In this document: in pieces, positions 29,399 to 39,537 of the stretch
How the letters are laid out: each line of letters begins with the position of its first letter
How positions within the stretch are numbered: the stretch's first letter is position 1
Assembly: GCF_029478095.1 (NCBI RefSeq)
Contig: NZ_JAKOAV010000005.1
Coordinates: 62,001-126,000 of the forward strand
Source of the DNA: Pelotomaculum isophthalicicum JI
GTDB lineage: Bacteria > Bacillota > Desulfotomaculia > Desulfotomaculales > Pelotomaculaceae
Direction of reading: 5' to 3'
DNA: 64,000 nucleotides
The notes under the pieces: model-generated
The model's input: only the letters and a program-made list of their open reading frames with translations
Told to the model about the DNA's origin: nothing
Database searches by the model: none
Translations under genes and position numbers: made by a program

Positions 29399-29645
29399 GC
29401 CGGCGAATTTGTTCTTCTTATTAATCTGTTGCAAGCCAGTGTTTTGCGAAATATGGAAATTATTAACCGTTATTGTCATCATACGCTAAGCATATTATGC
29501 ATAAAACGTATCCTTAACAGTCACATGAAGTCCAGGGATTGCATATATCTGAAAAAGGTGGGTTACGGTTAAATAATAAACCATCTATAAAAAGGCGCCG
29601 CTCATAAAAGCCGGACAAAAGCGGCCGTCCTGAGGGTGATAATTG

Positions 29646-30155
29646 GTGAAAAACGGTGACGAAAGCAGTATTCTGGGTAATGTTTTGAGAGGTATCGGTG
29701 AACTGGTCGAACTGGTGCAAAAAATGGACGCCGAAGGGAAGACGGAAATTAACAGGTTTGGAACATTAGGCGACTTCCACGGGCAGCAGGGAACAGGTGC
29801 CCGCTATGGCTTTACTCTGAGAACGGGTCTGCCGGGAAGAAGGAGACCGGCTCCCGGTGACGTTGCACCGAGTGAAGTCGAATGGCAGCCTCCCTTAAAA
29901 AAACGTGAGCCGGTGATTGATGTTTTTGATGAGGGCGGTTTCATCCGTGTCGTAGCGGAACTGTCGATAGCATCGGATGATGAAGTGGCTCTTGATATAA
30001 AAGAAAATGTACTTAATATGACTGTTGAAACGAGAGATGTTTCCTTCAGTAAGTGCATAGCCATGCCTAAAAAAGTAAATCCTGGCACAATGCGTAAATA
30101 TATTCGCAATGGTATCTTGGAAGTGCTAGTGGATGTGCAGGATAGTAGTCAGTAG
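29646..30155 (+). CDS. Hsp20-like gas vesicle protein (GvpH-like)
   Basis: 169 residues. N-terminal helical part (NVLRGIGELVELVQKM) then a C-terminal small-heat-shock-like beta domain (KREPVIDVFDEGGFIRVVAEL ..). Similar arrangement to GvpH of archaeal gas vesicle clusters, thought to be a chaperone or regulator of assembly. GTG 29646 follows GAGGGTGAT by five bases. Its last residues (..SSQ) and its TAG stop are made of heptamer-repeat DNA, so the original C-terminus may have been replaced. First gene of the gas vesicle locus. Confidence 0.75.
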   Translation: MKNGDESSILGNVLRGIGELVELVQKMDAEGKTEINRFGTLGDFHGQQGTGARYGFTLRTGLPGRRRPAPGDVAPSEVEWQPPLKKREPVIDVFDEGGFIRVVAELSIASDDEVALDIKENVLNMTVETRDVSFSKCIAMPKKVNPGTMRKYIRNGILEVLVDVQDSSQ

Positions 30156-30215
30156 TCAATAATCAGTAGTCAAGAGACAGGAGATAGAAACAAGAGACAA
30201 GAGTCTGGAGACAGT
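30141..30215 (+). repeat. Heptamer array overlapping the 3' end of the Hsp20-like gene (family A)
   Basis: AGTAGTCAGTAGTCA units from about 30142 provide the last codons and stop of the upstream gene; degenerate AGAGACA units continue towards the AAA ATPase gene. No complementary arm seen. Confidence 0.75.
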
Positions 30216-30238
30216 AGCTGGTAGGTGAAGTTATTAAA

Positions 30239-32371
30239 GTGGCTGGACAGATTACCTTTAAAGTTACCAAGGCAATGGGCAAGGATGTTGGCAGGGGGAT
30301 CGCCCGTTTGGATCCCGCAGACATCCAGGAGCTGGGTCTGGGCGTCGGGGATCTGATTGCTATTGGCTCCGGGTGCCGGACAGCTGCCCGGGTTATGCCG
30401 GCTTACGCCGAGTACAGAGGCGGCAAGTTGCTGCAGATTGACGGCATTATCAGGGAAAACGCCGGAGTGTCGCTGGGTGAGATGGTTCAGGTCAGCGCTG
30501 TCAATGGCCGGTCCGCCCAAAAAATTGTCTTGACCCCTATCGGCGCGGAATCTAACCTGCAGTTGGACGAAGCGTTCATTAGCCGTTCGCTGCAAGGAAT
30601 ACCATTGGTTAAAGGGGATAAAGTTCGCATTTCGGTGCTAGGCTTGCGGAACCAGGAATTCATGATTGAGGAAACCGTGCCTGATGGATTTGTGCTGCTT
30701 AAAAAAGACACTGTGGTGGAATTGCTGCAAACAAAAGTGGCAGGGCTAAAGAAGGCCGGTCAAGTAACCTATGAAGACATCGGCGGGATGGGCAAGGAAC
30801 TGTCCAGGATCCGGGAGATGATCGAACTGCCGCTTAAGTACCCGGCTGTCTTCCAACACCTGGGCATTGAACCGCCCAAGGGTGTGCTGCTGTGCGGGCC
30901 GCCGGGCACCGGCAAAACATTAATCGCCCGGGCGGTGGCCGGCGAAGCTAACGCATACTTTTTGTCCGTTAATGGTCCGGAGATAATCCATAAGTATTAT
31001 GGTGAAAGCGAGGCTAAATTACGGGAGATCTTTGACAAGGCCGCTAAAAAGGGCAACAGCATTATTTTTCTGGACGAAATTGACGCTATTGCGCCCAAAC
31101 GGGCTGAAGTTACCGGTGAAGTTGAGAAAAGAGTGGTGGCCCAGTTGCTTGCGCTGATGGACGGCCTGGCTTCACGCGGACAAGTGATCGTCATCGGAGC
31201 CACCAATATACCGGATTCCCTTGATCCGGCCTTACGCCGCCCCGGCCGGTTCGACCGGGAAATAATTATTGGTGTGCCTGACCAGAAGGGCCGGCTGGAG
31301 ATCTTGCAAATCCATACCCGGGGCATGCCCTTGGCCGGTGATGTGGACCTGGAGCGGATAGCCGGGTTAACCGGCGGGTTCGTTGGGGCGGACTTGCTGG
31401 CCCTTTGCCGGGAGGCGGCAATGCACCGTTTGAGAAGAATCCTGCCCTACATGGACCCGGAAGGTTTATCCCCGGAACTGCTGGCCCGACTGCATGTATC
31501 CATGCAGGATTTCCTGCAGGCGCTGGAGGAAGTGGAGCCGTCGGCTACCAGGGAGTTTCTGGTAGAAGTGCCCGGCGCCAATTGGGAGGATGTAGGTGGA
31601 TTGGACGGGGTCAAACAGCACTTGCGGGAAACCATTGAATGGCCTTTGAAATACACGGAGCTTTTTGACCAGGCCGGTGCTCAGGCGCCGCGGGGAATTC
31701 TTTTGTACGGTCCGCCCGGTACGGGTAAAACATTGCTGGCCCGGGCGGTTGCCAATGAAGCTAACGCCAACTTTATCTCGATTAAAGGCCCGGCTTTACT
31801 GTCCAAGTGGGTGGGTGAGTCGGAAAAAGCCGTGCGGGAGGTTTTCCATAAGGCTCGCCAAGCGGCCCCATGCATTATTTTTTTTGATGAGATTGACGCC
31901 CTGGTCGCTGCCCGGGGAATGAGTGGTTCGGTTGCCTCTGAACGGGTTTTGAGCCAGTTATTGACCGAAATGGACGGTATTGAGGATTTACGGCGGGTAG
32001 TGGTGCTGGGGGCGACCAACCGGCTTGATCTAATCGATCCGGCCCTGTTGCGCCCGGGACGGTTTGATTTGCAACTACGCATGGAACTGCCCGCGCAGGC
32101 TTCCCGCCGGCAAATTCTGGACGTACACACCAGGAAAAAGCCTGTCGCGGAAGATGTGGATCTAGACGGTCTGGCCGTTGAAACTGAAGGTTTCTCCGGC
32201 GCGGATATCCGGCACCTGTGCAGCAGGGCGGCCCTCGCTGCGGTACGGGAATACCTGGCCGGAAATGATTCGTCGCCACAGGGGGCTCCCGGCATACAGA
32301 TTTGCCACAGGCATTTCAGGCAAGCTCTGGCGGAAATCGGGCTGCGGGCGACACCGGATGGTTCAAGTTAA
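30239..32371 (+). CDS. CDC48/VAT-like double AAA ATPase in the gas vesicle locus
   Basis: 710 residues: a CDC48-type N domain (1-90; [21 protein letters not shown]), then two AAA modules with Walker A GPPGTGKT at 220-227 and 491-498, Walker B FLDEIDAI and FFDEIDAL, and arginine-finger regions RRPGRFDRE and LRPGRFDLQ. Members are protein-remodelling unfoldases; this one probably helps assemble or dismantle gas vesicles, judged only from its place inside the locus. GTG 30239 start; a heptamer array fills the gap before it. All catalytic motifs are intact. Confidence 0.85.
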
Positions 32372-32403
32372 GCCTAAAGAAACAAAGAAGGTGAAAATTT
32401 TAG

Positions 32404-32781
32404 ATGACTGCCGGGTTGCAACCAAAAAAACAGCGTGATGGAGATTCGCTGGCTGCGCTGGTAGACCGCCTGCTCGACAAAGGCCTGGTAATCAATGCCG
32501 ATATTTTGGTGTCGGTGGCAGGGGTGGAATTGCTTGGCTTAAAAATCAGGGCGGCGCTAGCCTCCTTCGAAACAGCGGCCCGGTATGGCCTGGAATTTCC
32601 CTCCGGCACCAATATTGAGACCGTAGCCTGGAAAGACGCGCAGATGGAGAGGGAAAGCTGTCCGCAATGTGAAAAGCGGGTGTCCAAAGAGGAACTCCTG
32701 TCAGAGGGGTGCCCGTGGTGCGGGTGGATTTCGGCCAAGGCGAAAAAACGCCTGGATGCCCACTCGTCCTTGCCGGTATAG
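32404..32781 (+). CDS. GvpA/GvpJ-type gas vesicle protein with C-terminal zinc ribbon
   Basis: 125 residues. Residues 14-64 are a gas vesicle structural domain (LAALVDRLLDKGLVINADILVSV..) of the GvpJ/GvpA type. After a short linker comes a CxxC-x13-CxxC zinc ribbon, cysteines 86, 89, 103 and 106, then a basic tail. GvpA/J proteins normally lack such a module. The same ribbon ends the protein at 35055-36092, so they form a set. Possibly it anchors or nucleates vesicle assembly, or binds a partner such as nucleic acid; unproven. Confidence 0.8.
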   Translation: MTAGLQPKKQRDGDSLAALVDRLLDKGLVINADILVSVAGVELLGLKIRAALASFETAARYGLEFPSGTNIETVAWKDAQMERESCPQCEKRVSKEELLSEGCPWCGWISAKAKKRLDAHSSLPV

Positions 32782-32802
32782 CGCGGGAGGAGGGAGCTTG
32801 CA

Positions 32803-32826
32803 TTGCAATTAGATGAAGTAAAATGA
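32803..32826 (+). CDS. Seven-codon ORF overlapping the next gene
   Basis: TTG 32803 to TGA 32826 encodes seven residues. It has a strong ribosome-binding site (GGAGGAGGG, 32786-32794) and its TGA overlaps the next gene's ATG (ATGA). The next gene has no good site of its own, so this may be a coupling leader. Confidence 0.3.
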   Translation: MQLDEVK

Positions 32827-33248
32827 AGCGGCTATTAGCCGCCCTGGACAGCCGGAGCCGGGCTGTCTGGTGGCATCTATACTGCCGCGGTCATGCGGAC
32901 ATCGCCGGAATGTCAGCGGCAGCCGGCCTGGATAGCGAGATGGAGGTTTTACTTGCCATTCGCCAGGCGCTTAATCCCGCCGCCGAGGCCATCCTGGGTG
33001 AACCGGCGGTTGAATTTGCCCCCTGCCGGGCAGACATAAGCACGGGCGAGAAGATATACAACCACTGGTGGCTTAATCCTGTCTTCCTGCCGCCTGTGGC
33101 CGGTGAACCCCTTGTGGACATATTTGAAACCGAAAGTGAACTGGTGTTAATTGTTGATCCCGGCAGCCGGCCGGTTTACGGTAACCCGGAAGTAACCTGC
33201 CGGAATGGCATCGTCATGATTAGGTTCGAGCGTTCTGAAGGCAGGTAG
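32823..33248 (+). CDS. Hypothetical gas vesicle locus protein with Hsp20-like tail
   Basis: 141 residues, not recognised as a named family. The N-terminal ~70 residues are helical; the C-terminal part (EPLVDIFETESELVLIVD.. GNPEVTCRNGIVMIRF) is similar in pattern to the Hsp20-like domain at 29646-30155 (EPVIDVFDEGGFIRVV..). It may be a chaperone-like accessory protein. Followed by a heptamer array and a degenerate partial copy of its own C-terminus. Confidence 0.6.
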   Translation: MKRLLAALDSRSRAVWWHLYCRGHADIAGMSAAAGLDSEMEVLLAIRQALNPAAEAILGEPAVEFAPCRADISTGEKIYNHWWLNPVFLPPVAGEPLVDIFETESELVLIVDPGSRPVYGNPEVTCRNGIVMIRFERSEGR

Positions 33249-33249
33249 C

Positions 33250-33530
33250 AGCAGGAGTCAGGAGTCAGGAGTTCTGTCTTCCCGCTGCCTGCGGCAGGAG
33301 AGTGGTTCGTGAACATATTTGAAACCGGCGGCGATTCTGGATCAATTGTTAATTCCGGCAGCCGACCGCTGTTCGGGAACCTGGAAATAATTAGCCGGAA
33401 TGGTATCGTCATGATTAGGTTTAAGCATTCGAAAAAAGGTAGAATTCAGTGTTTGGGATACAGGAGGCATAGAGAGCATTTTTTGTCTTAAAATATTCTG
33501 ACTACTGACTCCTGACTACTGACTACTGAA
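33250..33530 (+). repeat. Heptamer inverted-repeat element with gene fragment inside (family A)
   Basis: Forward arm AGGAGTCAGGAGTCAGGAG at 33253-33271; right half-core TTGTCTTAAAATATTCTGA and complementary arm CTACTGACTCCTGACTACTGA at 33484-33530. Between them lies the partial gene copy at 33309-33491. Confidence 0.75.
33309..33491 (+). pseudogene. Degenerate partial copy of the preceding gene's 3' end
   Basis: The frame reads VNIFETGG.. GSRPLFGNLEIISRNGIVMIRFKHSKK, aligned with VDIFETES.. GSRPVYGNPEVTCRNGIVMIRFERSEG of the gene at 32823-33248. Only about 45 codons are copied and the frame then ends in unrelated sequence. Tandem partial duplication, sitting inside a heptamer element. Confidence 0.7.
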
Positions 33531-33543
33531 TAGAGGTGCCGCT

Positions 33544-33852
33544 TTGGCTCTGGAAATCAGCGAGGATAATTTAAAGCAAGGTTTACTGGGCCTGGTTATC
33601 GCTCTGGTGGAGATAATTAAGGATGCCTTAAAATTACAGGCCCTGTCGCGCATGGAGGACGGCAGTCTGAATGAAACGGAGATCGAGCGGCTGGGCCGGG
33701 CGTTGCTTGATCTGGACCGGGCTATTGAGGACATTAAGTGTGAGCATGGTGTCAGCGAGTCGGTGAAGAGTGTCCGGGACGGCCTGGACCGGATCGTGGA
33801 TGAAGTGGTGGACCGGATTCTTGATCCCCGGCGATGGGAAGAAGAGCAGTAG
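33544..33852 (+). CDS. gvpK: Gas vesicle protein GvpK
   Basis: 102 residues. The family pattern LKQGLLGLVIALVEIIKDALKLQALSRMEDGSL (shown in pieces: GLLGLVIALVEIIKD, ALSRMEDGSL) and ERLGRALLDLDRAIEDIK identify GvpK, an accessory protein needed for gas vesicle formation. TTG 33544 follows AGAGGTG. The end lies 11 bases before the gvpL-like gene. Confidence 0.95.
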   Translation: MALEISEDNLKQGLLGLVIALVEIIKDALKLQALSRMEDGSLNETEIERLGRALLDLDRAIEDIKCEHGVSESVKSVRDGLDRIVDEVVDRILDPRRWEEEQ

Positions 33853-33863
33853 GGGGTGGAAGA

Positions 33864-35003
33864 ATGGCTCTCCGGGTGGATGACGGCGGCAGCGGTTTGA
33901 TGAATCAGAATGTAGCGGCTGTCAGTTCTGTTGCCCGTCTGTTGGTGAAGGCTGAATTAAAAAAAATGGGACTGGAAAAAGAAATACTGGTGGCGGCGCG
34001 GGAAGTTTTGCAGCAAGCCGTTCGGGATGCCATCCGGGCTGTGCTCATCGAAACGGCCGGCATGAAGGGGGCGTCTGATCTGACAGTACAAGTAGACATG
34101 GCAGAAGTATTAAGGCATACGTCTCCGGCAGCTGAAGCGCAGGCGGATCCTAAGATCGAATCTCCGGTGTCGCCGGGTTGTCATGAACCTCTCCAGTCTC
34201 AAGAGCATGCGCCGGCAGCCGCTCCCACAGGCTTGTATATTTACGGTGTGGCTGCCGGAGAAGATGATTTTGAAATGGGGGTTGCCGGTGTCGCAGGGTG
34301 CCGGGTATATGCCTTGGCTGCCGCAGGCTTGTGTGCTGTAGTGCACGACTGTTCCACAGAGCCTTATCGTCCGGACAGCGACGAGCAGGCTAAAGAGTGG
34401 CTGTTTGCGCACCAGGAAGTACTGGACCGCGCTAAAGAGCGGCTGGAGACCATTCTTCCCATGGGTTTTAATACAATAATTCACTCTGCCGCCCGTAAGC
34501 CTCAGGAAGTGTTGAGGGAATGGTTGTCGCAGGAGTGCGGCCGTTTGAAATCAATGCTTGATCGCCTTCGTGGCAAAGAAGAATTTGCAATTAAGATCCT
34601 AGTGCCGGAAGAGGTTTTAAAGAAGGTGGCTCTGCGGGAAGACAGCCGCCTGCAAGAATTGCAGAGGGAACTTGAGGGTAAACCGGAAGGAACGCGCTAC
34701 CTTTACAAGGAAAGACTGGAAAAGGCTGTTAAAGATTCTCTGGAAGAAATGGCGGAAGTTTATTTCAGAAAGGTTTACCGGGCTCTCCATCGGTTATGCG
34801 CTGATATTCGAGTGGAAAAAACAAAGCAGGGACCGCCAGGAAAGCGTATGATTGCCAGCCTTTCCTGCCTGGTGGAGAAAGACCTTGTACCGGCGCTGAG
34901 TGAAACGCTGGCGGAAATCAAGCAGCAGGAAGCTCTTGACATAGATTTTACCGGTCCCTGGCCGCCTTACAGCTTTGTCAGCCAACCGGTCGTACCGTCA
35001 TAA
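33864..35003 (+). CDS. gvpL: GvpL/GvpF family protein with N-terminal helical extension
   Basis: 379 residues. The GvpL/F domain starts near residue 125 (GLYIYGVAAGEDD) and ends with the hallmark DIDFTGPWPPYSF. The first ~110 residues (VARLLVKAELKKMGLEKEILVAAREVLQQ..) are an extra helical module plus Pro/Ala linker not usual in GvpF/L. GvpF/L act at early stages of assembly and contact GvpA. ATG 33864 with GGGGGTGG upstream is preferred to the in-frame start at 33834 inside gvpK. Confidence 0.88.
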   Translation: MALRVDDGGSGLMNQNVAAVSSVARLLVKAELKKMGLEKEILVAAREVLQQAVRDAIRAVLIETAGMKGASDLTVQVDMAEVLRHTSPAAEAQADPKIESPVSPGCHEPLQSQEHAPAAAPTGLYIYGVAAGEDDFEMGVAGVAGCRVYALAAAGLCAVVHDCSTEPYRPDSDEQAKEWLFAHQEVLDRAKERLETILPMGFNTIIHSAARKPQEVLREWLSQECGRLKSMLDRLRGKEEFAIKILVPEEVLKKVALREDSRLQELQRELEGKPEGTRYLYKERLEKAVKDSLEEMAEVYFRKVYRALHRLCADIRVEKTKQGPPGKRMIASLSCLVEKDLVPALSETLAEIKQQEALDIDFTGPWPPYSFVSQPVVPS

Positions 35004-35054
35004 GTTGTTTCGGCCGGGCATACGGTGTGAGGTTTAATATGCGAGGTTTAAGGA

Positions 35055-36092
35055 ATGGTGAAGGAAAGCAATAAAATGCGACCTGTAAGCCGGCGGGAAG
35101 CCACACTAAATGATCTTCTCGACCGGCTTTTAAATAAAGGGCTGATGTTATACAGCGACGTGGTTGTTACTGTCTCCGGCATTCCCCTCCTGGGACTGAA
35201 TTTGCGTCTGGCATTAGCAGGCATGTCCACTATGCTGCGCTATGGTTTTATGACGGACTGGGATGAGGCTATACGCTCTTCTGTTCAAAAAGATAAGGCC
35301 GTGGATGGGCCGCCCCTGGAGAGAGGGGAGCGGGTTCTTTTTTCCCAGTTTGCTTCCTGCTGGTTCAACCGTGGTATTTATTCCGCCTGGCAGCCGGGGT
35401 TGCTTTATCTTACCGACAGGCGCCTGCTGCTCTACCGTCAGGAACCGGCGGAAACACTGCTAGACATCGGTTTGGGTCTGGTGAGCGGCGTGGATACCCG
35501 GCAAGAGCCCCATTTTAGTGGCCAGAACAGGGAGGAGATCCGGATCACCCTGACTACAGGTAACATAGTGAGGTTACACTGCGCCATCAGCAGTCAGCTG
35601 TTAAACGCTCTGGAAAAAGCCCGCGACACAGGTAATTCCCTAAACTGTGCCGAGCCGGCGCCGGACAGCGAAAAGAGAATATGGTACCTGATAAATGACC
35701 CCACAGGTAAATATAACTGGAGGCCGGGCTCATTTTACGTGCGGGAAGGTTGCCTGTGCTGGCGGGGTAGTTCAGGGCAAGGGGTACTGTTTCAGGTGGC
35801 CTCTGCCGATGTGCTGGAGGTAGAGGTGACAACTAAAGATGTCCCGGACGGCCCCGGCGGCAGATCAGTAATGGTGCTGCGTTATCTCGGCCGGCTCAGC
35901 CCAGAAAAGGTTTACTTTGCCGGTGAAGAGGAGGTTTTGCGGCCATGGGTTTCCCTGCTCGCGGACGCTCGCCGCGACCTTCTGGAAACCTGCCCGGCCT
36001 GTGGGGCTCCCGATCATGCTAACAGATTGCTTGATCACGGCTGTGCTGTTTGCGGCTGGGTGAGCGCCCGGCAGAAACGGCATTTACCATGA
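35055..36092 (+). CDS. GvpA/J-domain protein with two PH/GRAM-like segments and zinc ribbon
   Basis: 345 residues with an unusual architecture. Residues 17-64 (LNDLLDRLLNKGLMLYSDVVV..) are a GvpA/J-type structural domain. Residues ~90-190 (GERVLFSQ.. PGLLYLTDRRLLLYRQEP) look like a GRAM/PH-like domain; residues ~205-310 (WRPGSFYVREGCLCWRG..) look like a second one. The C-terminus is a CxxC-x13-CxxC ribbon, cysteines 313, 316, 330 and 333, the same spacing as in the 32404 gene. A role connecting vesicles to membrane or partner proteins is a guess. Start ATG 35055. Confidence 0.75.
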   Translation: MVKESNKMRPVSRREATLNDLLDRLLNKGLMLYSDVVVTVSGIPLLGLNLRLALAGMSTMLRYGFMTDWDEAIRSSVQKDKAVDGPPLERGERVLFSQFASCWFNRGIYSAWQPGLLYLTDRRLLLYRQEPAETLLDIGLGLVSGVDTRQEPHFSGQNREEIRITLTTGNIVRLHCAISSQLLNALEKARDTGNSLNCAEPAPDSEKRIWYLINDPTGKYNWRPGSFYVREGCLCWRGSSGQGVLFQVASADVLEVEVTTKDVPDGPGGRSVMVLRYLGRLSPEKVYFAGEEEVLRPWVSLLADARRDLLETCPACGAPDHANRLLDHGCAVCGWVSARQKRHLP

Positions 36093-36390
36093 ATCATAAT
36101 TAGTTAAAAGAGACCAGAAAATAATTAACAATGTGGTACTTATTTACATAATATACATTAGTAAGATTGAAGCTGGAGGCTTCTAAGGAGGGGTTTTATA
36201 GAAGTATTTTAGTATTAATTTTTAATATGGAATAAATTTCATAATTCAATTGAGTTGAGACCCCAGATGAAAGTGCATTGTAATAAATATGGTGTATTTT
36301 CGAATTTATTTAAACTATTGGCACATCGGACGGTAGAGAAACATAAACTACTAGCATAATCCAACATATCCAAACAAAGGAGTGTTTATT
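36093..36390 (+). promoter_or_regulatory. AT-rich region upstream of gvpA
   Basis: About 300 non-coding bases. It contains an orphan Shine-Dalgarno (TAAGGAGGGG, 36184-36193) preceded by the small hairpin GAAGCTGGAGGCTTC, with no ORF behind it, and a possible weak promoter (TTGGCA near 36320, CATAAA 18 bases on). This is the natural site for gvpA control; no clear sigma-54 or sigma-A site could be confirmed. Confidence 0.4.
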
Positions 36391-36603
36391 GTGAAACACA
36401 GCATTAAAGCTTCCAGCCTGGCGGAAGTTGTCGACCGGATCCTTGAAAAAGGTATCGTTATCGATCTCTGGGTAAGAGTATCACTGGTCGGTATTGAGCT
36501 TCTTGCCGTTGAAGCGAGAGTCGTCATCGCTAGCGTGGAAACCTGGCTTAAGTATGCTGAAGCAGTCGGCTTGACAGCCTTCCCGCTTCACGAAGCAGCA
36601 TAG
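36391..36603 (+). CDS. gvpA: Gas vesicle structural protein GvpA
   Basis: 70 residues, the canonical major shell protein: [40 protein letters not shown] and [15 protein letters not shown] are nearly identical to GvpA across bacteria. It forms the ribs of the hollow protein vesicle that gives buoyancy. Start GTG 36391 after AAAGGAGTG; an in-frame GTG at 36382 overlaps that site. Only one canonical copy is present; the two zinc-ribbon proteins carry divergent versions. Confidence 0.97.
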
Positions 36604-36716
36604 CGCTATTTGACTCCCCGGCTTGAACTCGTTTCCGGCCGGGGAGCATCCCAGACTTAGATGACGCGTTGTAATAGCGTCTTTATAGCTAAATAAAACG
36701 GACGGAGGTAATACAA

Positions 36717-37061
36717 GTGTCACTTTCCCAAGACCTGGCCGCAGTTGGTGAAGATCTTGTCAGCACACTTAAAGCGAGACTTGAACTGCTTGAAGCAATG
36801 CAAGCCGAGGTACAGCAGATGCTTGAAAAGTACCATCAAGAGCGACTGGAAATGTCCGCGAAGTTGAAAGAAATTCTCGCTGAAGACCGGTTAAACCGGG
36901 TTGAAGAAGTAAATAAACTGGTTGATTCCTACTGTGACGACAGGACCGAAGCGCAAAAAATTTGGAAAGAAACCCTGGCGGTCATGGAAAAGCTCAGGAC
37001 TCACAAAGTTAATAAGGTTAAGGAGAAAGTAAAGCCAAAGAGGAATAAATTTGAGGAGTAA
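36717..37061 (+). CDS. Coiled-coil protein of the gas vesicle locus
   Basis: 114 residues, not recognised. Almost wholly helical with heptad-like spacing (LVSTLKARLELLEAMQAEV, QQMLEKYHQERLEMSAKLKEIL, LNRVEEVNKLVDSY), ending in a Lys-rich tail. By position between gvpA and gvpO it could be a functional analogue of GvpC or GvpI, which bind the shell or its precursors; this is inference. GTG 36717 with GGAGG upstream; gvpO begins three bases after its stop. Confidence 0.7.
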   Translation: MSLSQDLAAVGEDLVSTLKARLELLEAMQAEVQQMLEKYHQERLEMSAKLKEILAEDRLNRVEEVNKLVDSYCDDRTEAQKIWKETLAVMEKLRTHKVNKVKEKVKPKRNKFEE

Positions 37062-37064
37062 AAA

Positions 37065-37328
37065 ATGATTGTACTGAAAGTTATTAATACTGTGGCGGAT
37101 TTTTTTGGCGAGGTATTAAAAAAGCCAGGTGATGTCATAGCGGTATTCCCTCAACCGGATGAAGGCTGGAAGGTGCAAATCGAGGTGGCGGAAGACTCGG
37201 AATATATGCGAAAAAGAGCGAGAGATGACCTGATGGCCCTGTATGAAGTTTCGCTTGATAAGGACTTGCAGATCCTGGGGTTTGAACGCCTGAGCCTTCG
37301 TGAAAGAAATGCGAATAGTATAGAATAG
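37065..37328 (+). CDS. gvpO: Gas vesicle protein GvpO
   Basis: 87 residues. The GvpO pattern EGWKVQIEVAEDSEYMRKRARDD (pieces) followed by LMALYEVSLDKDLQILGFERL is clear. GvpO is an essential accessory protein in haloarchaea and is present in many bacterial clusters. GAGGAG lies seven bases before ATG 37065. Confidence 0.9.
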   Translation: MIVLKVINTVADFFGEVLKKPGDVIAVFPQPDEGWKVQIEVAEDSEYMRKRARDDLMALYEVSLDKDLQILGFERLSLRERNANSIE

Positions 37329-37358
37329 TATAGAAGAAATACATCCGAGGTGGTAGGA

Positions 37359-38270
37359 ATGCCGGCAGGACAATCGGAAAAAACTTCTTGGGAGAATGAA
37401 ATTTTTATTGAAACCCCCTATATCAGGAATATTGAAAATCGCGCCATGATGTACCTGGAGGCAGGTTTTCCGGTGCATTTAAGCGGGCCGTCTGGCACCG
37501 GTAAAACTTCCCTGGCCTTAAATATCGCCAAAAATATGGGCCGCCCGGTAACGTTGATCCACGGAAATGAAGACTTCTCGACAACTGATTTGGTGGGTGG
37601 CAATGTAGGTTACCGGCGCAAAAAAGTAATTGACGATTACATCAACTACGTTCACTCCATTACAGAGAGCTTGCAGCAGCAGTGGCTGGACGGGCGGATA
37701 ACGACAGCCTGCCGCAACGGCCATATATTGATCTACGATGAATTTACCCGTTCCAGGGCGGAAGTTAATAATATACTGCTTTCGATTTTGGAGGAAAAAA
37801 CCCTGAGCCTGCCCAGTTTTCAGAACGAGGGACAGGATCTGAAAGTACACCCTCAGTTTAAAGCTATTTTTACCAGTAATCCGGTGGAATACGCTGGTAT
37901 TCACAAGGCGCAGGTTGCTCTTTCCGACAGGTTGATTACCCTTGAGCTTGATGATTTTGATTTTGATTCAGAGGTAGCCATAACTGCGGCAAAGTCCGGT
38001 CTGGATACTGAAGTTGCGGAAAGAATTGTACGTGTGATGAGGATGTTCAGGGAGACTTGCGGTTACCCGGTTGTCGCCTCCGTACGGACCAGCATAAAAA
38101 TTGCCAGGGTGATGTCGGTACACCATTTGTCCCCGGTTAGTGGTGAACAGACATTCGGGCAAGTTTGCATAGATATCCTGCTCTCTCTGATTCCTGGAGT
38201 CAGTGGGCGGGAGAGGGAAAAACTTGTGGGTTTGGTAGAGGGTATAGTGGATTCTTGTTTTCAGCATTAA
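37359..38270 (+). CDS. gvpN: Gas vesicle AAA ATPase GvpN
   Basis: 303 residues. MoxR-like AAA ATPase with Walker A GPSGTGKT (43-50), Walker B HILIYDEFTRS and sensor IFTSNPVEYAG. GvpN hydrolyses ATP during vesicle growth. ATG 37359 follows GAGGTGG by six bases; an in-frame GTG at 37350 overlaps that site. A hairpin repeat follows the stop. Confidence 0.96.
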   Translation: MPAGQSEKTSWENEIFIETPYIRNIENRAMMYLEAGFPVHLSGPSGTGKTSLALNIAKNMGRPVTLIHGNEDFSTTDLVGGNVGYRRKKVIDDYINYVHSITESLQQQWLDGRITTACRNGHILIYDEFTRSRAEVNNILLSILEEKTLSLPSFQNEGQDLKVHPQFKAIFTSNPVEYAGIHKAQVALSDRLITLELDDFDFDSEVAITAAKSGLDTEVAERIVRVMRMFRETCGYPVVASVRTSIKIARVMSVHHLSPVSGEQTFGQVCIDILLSLIPGVSGREREKLVGLVEGIVDSCFQH

Positions 38271-38286
38271 TGATAAAGCCGGTTCA

Positions 38287-38343
38287 GACGGTGTGGCGCT
38301 TACCGCTGGGGTGATCTGAAACCCACGGGTAAGCGCCGCGTCA
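38287..38343 (+). repeat. GGCGCTTACC hairpin element, compact copy (family B)
   Basis: GACG..GGCGCTTACC (38295-38304) pairs with GGTAAGCGCC (38328-38337)..CGTC; an inner TGGGGT/ACCCA stem continues it. Lies between gvpN and gvpF; might act as an RNA hairpin in the operon transcript. Confidence 0.8.
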
Positions 38344-38379
38344 AATCAGGAGTCATATTAATAAACGCCGGGTGGGGTG

Positions 38380-39141
38380 ATGCAATTGGCGAAAAAAAAA
38401 GAGGGTAAATATCTTTACGGTATTATTGAAACAAGGGACAAAAGAAGTTTTGGCAACATAGGCATCGGTGGCCGGGAGGATATTGTATATACGATTAATT
38501 ACCGGGATTTGGCGGTTGTGGCTAGCAACACTCCGGTAATTATTTATGATCCTGTTAAAGAAAACGCCTTCGCCCACCAGAGAGTCATATCAGACGTGAT
38601 GGAAGAATTCGATATCGTTCCGATGAGTTTCGGGATTATATCTGAAAGCACGGAAGAAATAATCAACCTGATGAAAAAAAATTATGTCAAATTTAAAAGA
38701 GAGATTGCTAAAATCAGAGGTAAAGTTGAACTTGGTTTAAAAATTTACTGGAAAAAAGATTCATTCGTTAAAGAAATACAGGAAGTTAACAGTTCTATCT
38801 CAGATGTTAAGGAAAAACTCACCCGAGAGAATCCCGATGCCGCCTATTACGGCAGGATTGATTTGGGGAAAATGGTTGAAGCGGCGGCTGGTGAGAAAAG
38901 AAACTATTATCACGGGCAAATATTCGAACCTCTGGAAAAGATGGCTGTTTCTGCCCGGAAGAATGATATTGTTACGCCCAGAATGGTGTTAAATGCTTCA
39001 TTCCTGGTAGCCAAAGAAAAAGAACCGGAATTTGACCTGGCAGTCGAGGAAATCTACCAACAGTATCAGGACAATTTAGATATTAAATATACCGGCCCAT
39101 GGCCCCCGTACAATTTTATAAACCTTAAAATAAATTTATGA
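38380..39141 (+). CDS. gvpF: Gas vesicle protein GvpF/GvpL family
   Basis: 253 residues with normal GvpF/L length: KYLYGIIETRDKRSF at the start, FDIVPMSFGIIS in the middle and the closing IKYTGPWPPYNFINL. Second member of this family in the locus, without the N-terminal extension of the first. More AT-rich and lysine-rich than the first copy, so the two are not a recent duplication. Start ATG 38380 or TTG 38386; GGTGGGG precedes. Confidence 0.94.
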   Translation: MQLAKKKEGKYLYGIIETRDKRSFGNIGIGGREDIVYTINYRDLAVVASNTPVIIYDPVKENAFAHQRVISDVMEEFDIVPMSFGIISESTEEIINLMKKNYVKFKREIAKIRGKVELGLKIYWKKDSFVKEIQEVNSSISDVKEKLTRENPDAAYYGRIDLGKMVEAAAGEKRNYYHGQIFEPLEKMAVSARKNDIVTPRMVLNASFLVAKEKEPEFDLAVEEIYQQYQDNLDIKYTGPWPPYNFINLKINL

Positions 39142-39159
39142 TAAAAGCAGGTAATGCGT

Positions 39160-39537
39160 ATGTTTATACTTGACGACTTGATGATGGCGCCCTGGCGTTT
39201 TTTTTATTTTGTTGTTGAGAAAATACATGATCAAGCCATGGCGGAACTTTTGGATGAATCAGTAATCACCCGCCAGTTGCTGGAAGCGCAGATTCGTTAT
39301 GATATGGGTGAAATTGATGATGAAGAATACGGAAAAATCGAAGAGGTGTTGATCAATCGCTTGCACACGGCCAGGGAATTAAAACTGCAACTGGCGGAAG
39401 AAGAATCCGAAAACCTTGATGAAAGTGAATACGGAGTTATAGAAACTGATAATCTTGAAGAAGATGAAGACGAATATGAAGAAATAGAAGATTCTGAGGA
39501 AATTGAAGTTAATTTCGCCGGATTTATGGAAGACTGA
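39160..39537 (+). CDS. gvpG: Gas vesicle protein GvpG
   Basis: 125 residues. The N-terminal FILDDLMMAPWRFF and LLEAQIRYDMGEIDDEEYGKIE (pieces) match GvpG. The last ~45 residues are a strongly acidic tail (Glu/Asp repeats), longer than in most GvpG. ATG 39160 is chosen, with AGGT upstream; ATG 39154 is in frame. It closes the gas vesicle locus; the 166 bases to argS hold no gene. Confidence 0.9.
   Translation: MFILDDLMMAPWRFFYFVVEKIHDQAMAELLDESVITRQLLEAQIRYDMGEIDDEEYGKIEEVLINRLHTARELKLQLAEEESENLDESEYGVIETDNLEEDEDEYEEIEDSEEIEVNFAGFMED

Follow-up and report, generated by a model that had tools for sequence, protein, structure and literature searches.

Four-cysteine ribbons and predicted tandem PH domains on GvpJ- and GvpM-type gas-vesicle proteins of Pelotomaculum isophthalicicum

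Two GvpA-related proteins with added modules

The subject of this work is a gas-vesicle (gvp) gene cluster in the window, that is, the whole stretch of 64,000 nucleotides analysed here (Pelotomaculum isophthalicicum JI, contig NZ_JAKOAV010000005.1, positions 62,001 to 126,000 of the forward strand). The cluster lies entirely on the + strand and spans 29643-39537, from an Hsp20-like gene to the gene of GvpG. Two of its genes encode GvpA-related proteins with additional C-terminal modules: a GvpJ-type protein ending in a four-cysteine ribbon, and a GvpM-type protein in which two predicted pleckstrin homology (PH) domains are placed between the N-terminal domain and a similar ribbon (Table 1). 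Both fusions had been proposed in an earlier note made from the sequence alone, and both open reading frames (ORFs) were recovered at the positions reported there.

The N-terminal domains of the two proteins were matched to the Pfam family PF00741 (Gas_vesicle) well over its cut-off of 25 bits, with 54.5 bits for GvpJ (expectation value, E, 1.2e-14; residues 15-53) and 48.4 bits for GvpM (E 1e-12; residues 17-55). In a sequence search of the PDB, the N-domain matched GvpA chains. Regarding the subfamily, NF046090 (GvpJ) clearly outscored all other Gvp models for the 125-residue protein (E 4.5e-29, 100.3 bits). NF046091 (GvpM) was the best for the 345-residue protein (E 1.2e-22, 79.4 bits), with GvpJ next at 38.4. 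These scores lie under the curated cut-offs of 125 and 109, but both models are specific to halophiles and so are their cut-offs.

A tree of 79 short N-domains separated GvpA, ribbon-bearing GvpJ, GvpM, and the Bacillus-type J and S proteins onto different branches. This tree was built on an alignment of about 62 residues, branch support values being left aside, and only its major branches were relied upon. The first protein of the window was placed with GvpJ, not with GvpA or GvpM, and the gene maps show it encoded together with K, L and M; the second clusters with GvpM, and its gene follows that of GvpL. The ribbon was present in every member of the ribbon-J branch and in none of the Bacillus-type J proteins. 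The description of both domains as GvpA/J in the earlier note holds for the first protein, as a GvpJ type, whereas the second is of the GvpM type. GvpA is encoded by a gene of its own, separate from the two fusion genes.

Four-cysteine ribbons and the PH pair

The ribbons of GvpJ and GvpM share the spacing CxxC-x13-CxxC, with the cysteines exactly at the residues listed in the earlier note. The 12 aligned GvpJ proteins in which the four cysteines and the CPWCGW motif are invariant come from Bacillota, Streptomyces and two haloarchaea. The cysteines of the GvpM ribbon were retained in four Pelotomaculaceae proteins and in an orthologue from a different Bacillota family (genome G459). When the GvpJ ribbon was searched against the whole genome, the GvpM ribbon was its sole match apart from itself (E 1.4e-5), so the likeness of the two is above chance and the ribbon proposed as common to both proteins is indeed shared. 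Curated ribbon families were not reached over any cut-off, with DUF7560, DZR and others as sub-threshold matches only, and the term 'zinc ribbon' is thus a reading of the cysteine pattern and not a family assignment. The ribbon may hold zinc. The GvpM ribbons of Pelotomaculaceae and those of the other two families are 45-55% identical to each other, and both are on average 42-46% identical to J ribbons; as M ribbons are about equally far from each other and from J ribbons, these identities do not decide whether the M ribbon was copied from GvpJ.

In the case of the PH domains, the window GvpM taken by itself gave sub-threshold Pfam matches to the PH clan (bPH_3, E 0.057, 14.3 bits, cut-off 23), and a PDB sequence search with the PH parts returned nothing significant. 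The orthologue from G459, which is 32% identical to the window protein across all four domains (357 columns, E 3e-80), passed the Pfam cut-offs for Vps36 PH (26.4 bits, cut-off 24.1) and bPH_3 (24.2 bits, cut-off 23). An AlphaFold2 model of the full-length window GvpM from four alignment rows had a predicted local distance difference test score (pLDDT) of 45, which is too poor for fold comparison, and its strands are compatible with PH. The PH pair was modelled with the G459 sequence and five relatives, the window protein among them. This model reached a mean pLDDT of 80 and showed two units, each with seven strands and a C-terminal helix. Its predicted template modelling score was 0.51, which leaves the mutual arrangement of the two domains unsettled.

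The best Foldseek matches of the G459 model were the tandem-PH proteins BBS5, centaurin, Spt16 and Rtt106 (best E 4.3e-08). VIA-align of the model against PH chains gave Z values of at most 14.0 with the second domain; the first domain scored 12.9, its highest value, and 12.7 against PDB entries 4tyz and 2hth (GLUE PH). Fold and sequence signature are shared with bPH_3, GRAM, Vps36 GLUE and the tandem PH of BBS5, and none of the Pfam and PDB PH matches listed joins this fold to a gas-vesicle domain as in the window GvpM. Because the orthologue passes the Pfam cut-offs and its model matches PH structures, the prediction of two PH domains in the window GvpM is solid, and the two PH/GRAM-like segments proposed in the earlier note, weak when this protein is viewed singly, agree with these results. 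As a whole, the domain search and modelling put the gas-vesicle domains over cut-off in both proteins and PH over cut-off in the orthologue, with zinc-ribbon families at sub-threshold level. In G459, a third PH/GRAM-like unit is encoded by a gene of its own, flanked by gvpL and gvpM (L127:7097-7495, - strand), with a bPH_3 score of 20.9 bits, just below the cut-off.

Distribution, selection and gene neighbourhood

Among 398 Bacillota genomes sampled, 17 had any match to the GvpJ profile, and in 8 of these gvp-bearing genomes GvpJ carried the ribbon. Outside Bacillota, where the survey covered plasmid records, ribbon-GvpJ was found in Streptomyces and on two haloarchaeal plasmids. GvpJ with this ribbon is common, and the ribbon marks one clade of GvpJ. 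Tandem-PH GvpM is rarer: it was detected in four Pelotomaculaceae genomes and in two further Bacillota families, in one of which the copy is decayed, and Streptomyces has a version that lacks the ribbon. Besides the window, three Pelotomaculaceae genomes hold a relative with 60-68% identity over the full length; two of them are Pelotomaculum sp. PtaU1.Bin035 and P. propionicicum MGP, from whose names the family label of these genomes was taken. In G459, the GvpM-PH-PH-ribbon protein is a full-length open frame. In a further Bacillota family (G743), a GvpM-PH-PH frame is open and is directly followed by the ribbon in a different frame; this gvp locus is decaying (L147:6813-8848), with gvpJ and the accessory ORF broken, and gvpL was not found in that stretch.

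The Streptomyces sp. SGAir0924 plasmid protein WP_137962300.1 shares the GvpM domain and the PH pair with the window GvpM and differs from it by having no ribbon. It is annotated simply as GvpJ, and the neighbouring ribbon-GvpJ is the only other GvpA-family gene on that plasmid. Together with the ribbon-GvpJ proteins of Bacillota, Streptomyces and haloarchaea, this protein contradicts the statement in the earlier note that known GvpA/J/M/S proteins lack such modules. The fusions themselves are real and were traced through several genomes of different families and phyla. Viral contigs scanned with the alignments of GvpM and GvpJ yielded no relatives, and a scan of the genome collection with A1 returned two Pelotomaculum loci only.

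Selection was estimated as the ratio of nonsynonymous to synonymous substitution rates (dN/dS, Nei-Gojobori) in the four Pelotomaculaceae genomes. Values were 0.09-0.15 for GvpJ, 0.10-0.19 for the GvpM domain, 0.20-0.28 and 0.30-0.52 for the first and second PH domains, and 0.12-0.40 for the ribbon, where one pair was saturated. All parts of the GvpM fusion are under purifying selection. This finding, the full-length open frames in the four genomes and in G459, and the tandem-PH GvpM of Streptomyces leave practically no room for explaining the fusion by faulty assembly or gene decay, for which the broken version in G743 could be cited; assembly error is rejected as a general explanation, intact frames being found in several genomes.

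Table 1. Features of the gvp cluster, in coordinates of the window
Feature	Coordinates	Strand	Basis
Small heat-shock (Hsp20/GvpH-like) protein	29643..30155	+	NF041800 65.6 bits, below cut-off 140
CDC48-family AAA ATPase beside gvp genes	30239..32371	+	TIGR01243 923.5 bits, cut-off 802.65
GvpJ-type protein, 125 residues, C-terminal ribbon	32404..32781	+	PF00741; NCBIfam GvpJ best; relatives 54-86% identical
GvpA/J-type domain core of GvpJ, residues 15-53	32446..32562	+	PF00741 match
Four-cysteine ribbon of GvpJ, residues 84-112, Cys 86/89/103/106	32653..32739	+	Cys and CPWCGW invariant in 12 aligned proteins
Accessory ORF ('Hsp20b'), 141 residues, between J and K	32823..33248	+	Gene maps; very weak Hsp20 match
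GvpK	33544..33852	+	PF05121 E 7.5e-17
GvpL, 389 residues from first start codon	33834..35003	+	PF06386 E 1.9e-63 (residues 133-382); NF045778 GvpL E 1.6e-46
GvpM-type protein, two predicted PH domains and ribbon, 345 residues	35055..36092	+	PF00741; NCBIfam GvpM nearest; full-length relatives 60-68% identical
GvpA/M-type domain core of GvpM, residues 17-55	35103..35219	+	PF00741; nearest NCBIfam model GvpM
Predicted first PH domain, about residues 86-192	35310..35630	+	Orthologue bPH_3; model with 7 strands and C-terminal helix; PDB matches
Predicted second PH domain, about residues 203-310	35661..35984	+	Orthologue model with 7 strands and helix; PH chains; tandem-PH Foldseek matches
Four-cysteine ribbon of GvpM, residues 311-340, Cys 313/316/330/333	35985..36074	+	Own-genome match to GvpJ ribbon; Cys conservation
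GvpA, main shell protein, 73 residues	36382..36603	+	NF006874 GvpA 121 bits, cut-off 100
Small ORF 'X' between A and O	36717..37061	+	Homologues in several related loci; no confident family match
GvpO	37065..37328	+	PF05800 34.7 bits, cut-off 25
GvpN-like AAA+ ATPase (putative)	37350..38270	+	Sequence recognition and place beside A/O
GvpF	38377..39141	+	PF06386 E 1.9e-64
GvpG	39154..39537	+	PF05120 64.3 bits, cut-off 30.6

The genes of J, K, L and M, together with the accessory ORF, make up a block, and the order J-K-L-M was found in most loci and on the haloarchaeal plasmids; a few loci deviate, with M ahead of K or with scattered genes. Relative to the A-O-N-F-G block, its position varies: it may stand before, after or opposite. 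In one genome (G281), the two blocks lie on different contigs. On plasmids of Streptomyces sp. SGAir0924, Natronococcus occultus and Natrinema zhouii (L059, L060, L061), J and M of the block are the only GvpA-family genes of the plasmid record. Thus, with its order kept, its placement variable and its separability from the GvpA block, J-K-L-M behaves as a module. The loci L131 and L059 consist of J, M, K and L only, so that K, L or M are the only Gvp partners encoded beside the ribbon.

Several relatives have a homologue of the accessory ORF in the same position, as do J-K-L-M loci of haloarchaea. Its C-terminal part is partly duplicated just downstream, as a direct repeat of 157 nucleotides with 75% identity (33079-33235 and 33274-33430), the second piece lying inside ORF 33309-33491; a similar extra piece was seen in the same-species contig L044. 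GvpL, if called from the first start codon, has about 130 residues ahead of its GvpL/F domain. Outside the block, a homologue of the GvpN-like ATPase adjoins A/O in nearly all loci mapped, and the gene maps show the CDC48-family ATPase recurring in most bacterial gvp loci compared, with two copies in G459.

A possible role of the tails in vesicle seeding

Seeding has been described as the least understood step of gas-vesicle assembly (PMC11445434). A seeding complex has been proposed from J, K, L and M in Halobacterium, with S replacing M in Bacillus megaterium (PMC8716928, PMC7688916, PMC11445434), and the suggestion of the earlier note that these proteins might nucleate assembly agrees with this model by analogy. 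GvpL binds J, K and M (PMC7688916). In B. megaterium, contact between GvpA2 and GvpL requires J, S and K, which are proposed seeding and tip proteins (PMC11445434). The J and S relatives of this type found in other Bacillota loci are, like the window proteins, GvpA-related minor proteins, but they lack the ribbon and form separate tree branches.

Another comparison is with haloarchaea. GvpJ of H. salinarum and other haloarchaea resembles the window GvpJ in its N-domain and J-K-L-M neighbourhood, and it has an essential hydrophilic C-terminal tail: removal of 5 C-terminal residues abolishes vesicles in H. salinarum, and the C-terminal part contacts GvpG, GvpH and GvpL (PMC8716928). Likewise, haloarchaeal GvpM shares its N-domain and its position after GvpL with the window GvpM, and in H. 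salinarum its C-terminus contacts GvpF, GvpH and GvpL (PMC8716928). This GvpM has 84 residues, to which the window protein adds the predicted PH pair and the ribbon.

Based on these parallels, we lean towards the reading that the vesicle seed docks to other proteins through the ribbons and the PH pair, with GvpL as the likeliest partner. GvpJ and GvpM are minor shell-type proteins of a GvpJ/M-type (halophile-like) system. Their hydrophobic GvpA-type domains could take a place in the tip or first rib when a vesicle is begun, while their folded tails would point to the cytosol. There, the ribbons, and in GvpM also the PH pair, would bind partner proteins and serve as contact surfaces for GvpL or other Gvps, with GvpL gathering J, K and M into a seeding complex. 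In other words, the docking that unstructured tails carry out in other organisms would most likely fall to the ribbon and PH modules. While the domain identities, the PH fold, the conservation and the J-K-L-M gene block are shown here, the seeding role and the tail contacts are taken from other organisms; in this genome J, K, L and M, which may act together at nucleation, are linked genes.

Several points weigh against this reading. The p-vac GvpJ of H. salinarum is functional with a tail that is free of cysteine (PMC8716928), where the window GvpJ has its conserved ribbon, so the ribbon is no general requirement for a working GvpJ. Most GvpM proteins are without the PH extension, including that of G046, whose GvpM domain is close to the one of Pelotomaculum, so the extension is accessory. 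The second PH domain is the loosest-constrained part and evolves fast in Pelotomaculaceae. Finally, GvpL as the partner is a best guess, carried over from a distant organism.

Among the alternatives, the tandem PH domains of GvpM could hold a forming vesicle at the cell membrane or at a membrane protein and so position assembly in the cell. The PH/GRAM fold is often membrane-targeting in eukaryotes, and GvpM would be a hydrophobic component of the seed. To our knowledge, however, phosphoinositides, the ligands of classical PH domains, are generally absent from bacteria; many PH domains, including the FACT and GLUE types among our structural matches, bind proteins; and GvpM of most gvp loci is without the pair. 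A tether of this kind is unlikely. A broader version, in which GvpM-PH-PH anchors the seed to membrane or a cytosolic scaffold and positions the birth of the organelle in the cell, seems quite unlikely, and we know of no Gvp with an anchoring or positioning role. For attachment of the tails to membrane or DNA, which the earlier note had offered, we found no direct support.

J-K-L-M could also be in part a system of its own, making or seeding something other than a buoyant vesicle where GvpA is unlinked, with PH and ribbon serving that role. This would fit the J-K-L-M plasmids of Streptomyces and haloarchaea. Against it stands G281, which has its GvpA block on a separate contig, so that GvpA may be elsewhere in the plasmid hosts too, for which the search covered the plasmid records; the idea appears improbable. 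Even more so is the reading of the ribbons as nucleic-acid or transcription modules through which GvpJ and GvpM regulate gvp expression: the slight similarity that they show to ribosomal and RNA-polymerase ribbons (E 0.035-0.09) is at chance level, the hydrophobic shell-type domain is intact in both proteins, and a helix-turn-helix or other DNA-binding domain is not attached to either.

Regarding previous descriptions, the gvp operon of Thermacetogenium phaeum was reported with four GvpA genes 'of different sizes' (PMC3551663). Searches of the open-access literature returned nothing on gas vesicles with zinc ribbons and, judged by titles and term counts, nothing relevant on gas vesicles with pleckstrin homology. 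Neither architecture was thus found described in the open literature, and we regard them as a new form of known minor shell proteins, not as a new system. Database names can mislead here, as with the Streptomyces tandem-PH protein that is called only GvpJ.

The study of GvpJ and GvpM is hindered by their hydrophobicity and their aggregation. In the proteins described here, the putative contact regions are folded, soluble-looking modules whose separate expression could reveal the partner, and with J-K-L-M there is a small set of candidate genes for seeding in vitro and for engineering acoustic reporters. Altogether, in Pelotomaculum and in scattered other bacteria, the genes show which modules the seed of a gas vesicle could use to hold on to its partners.

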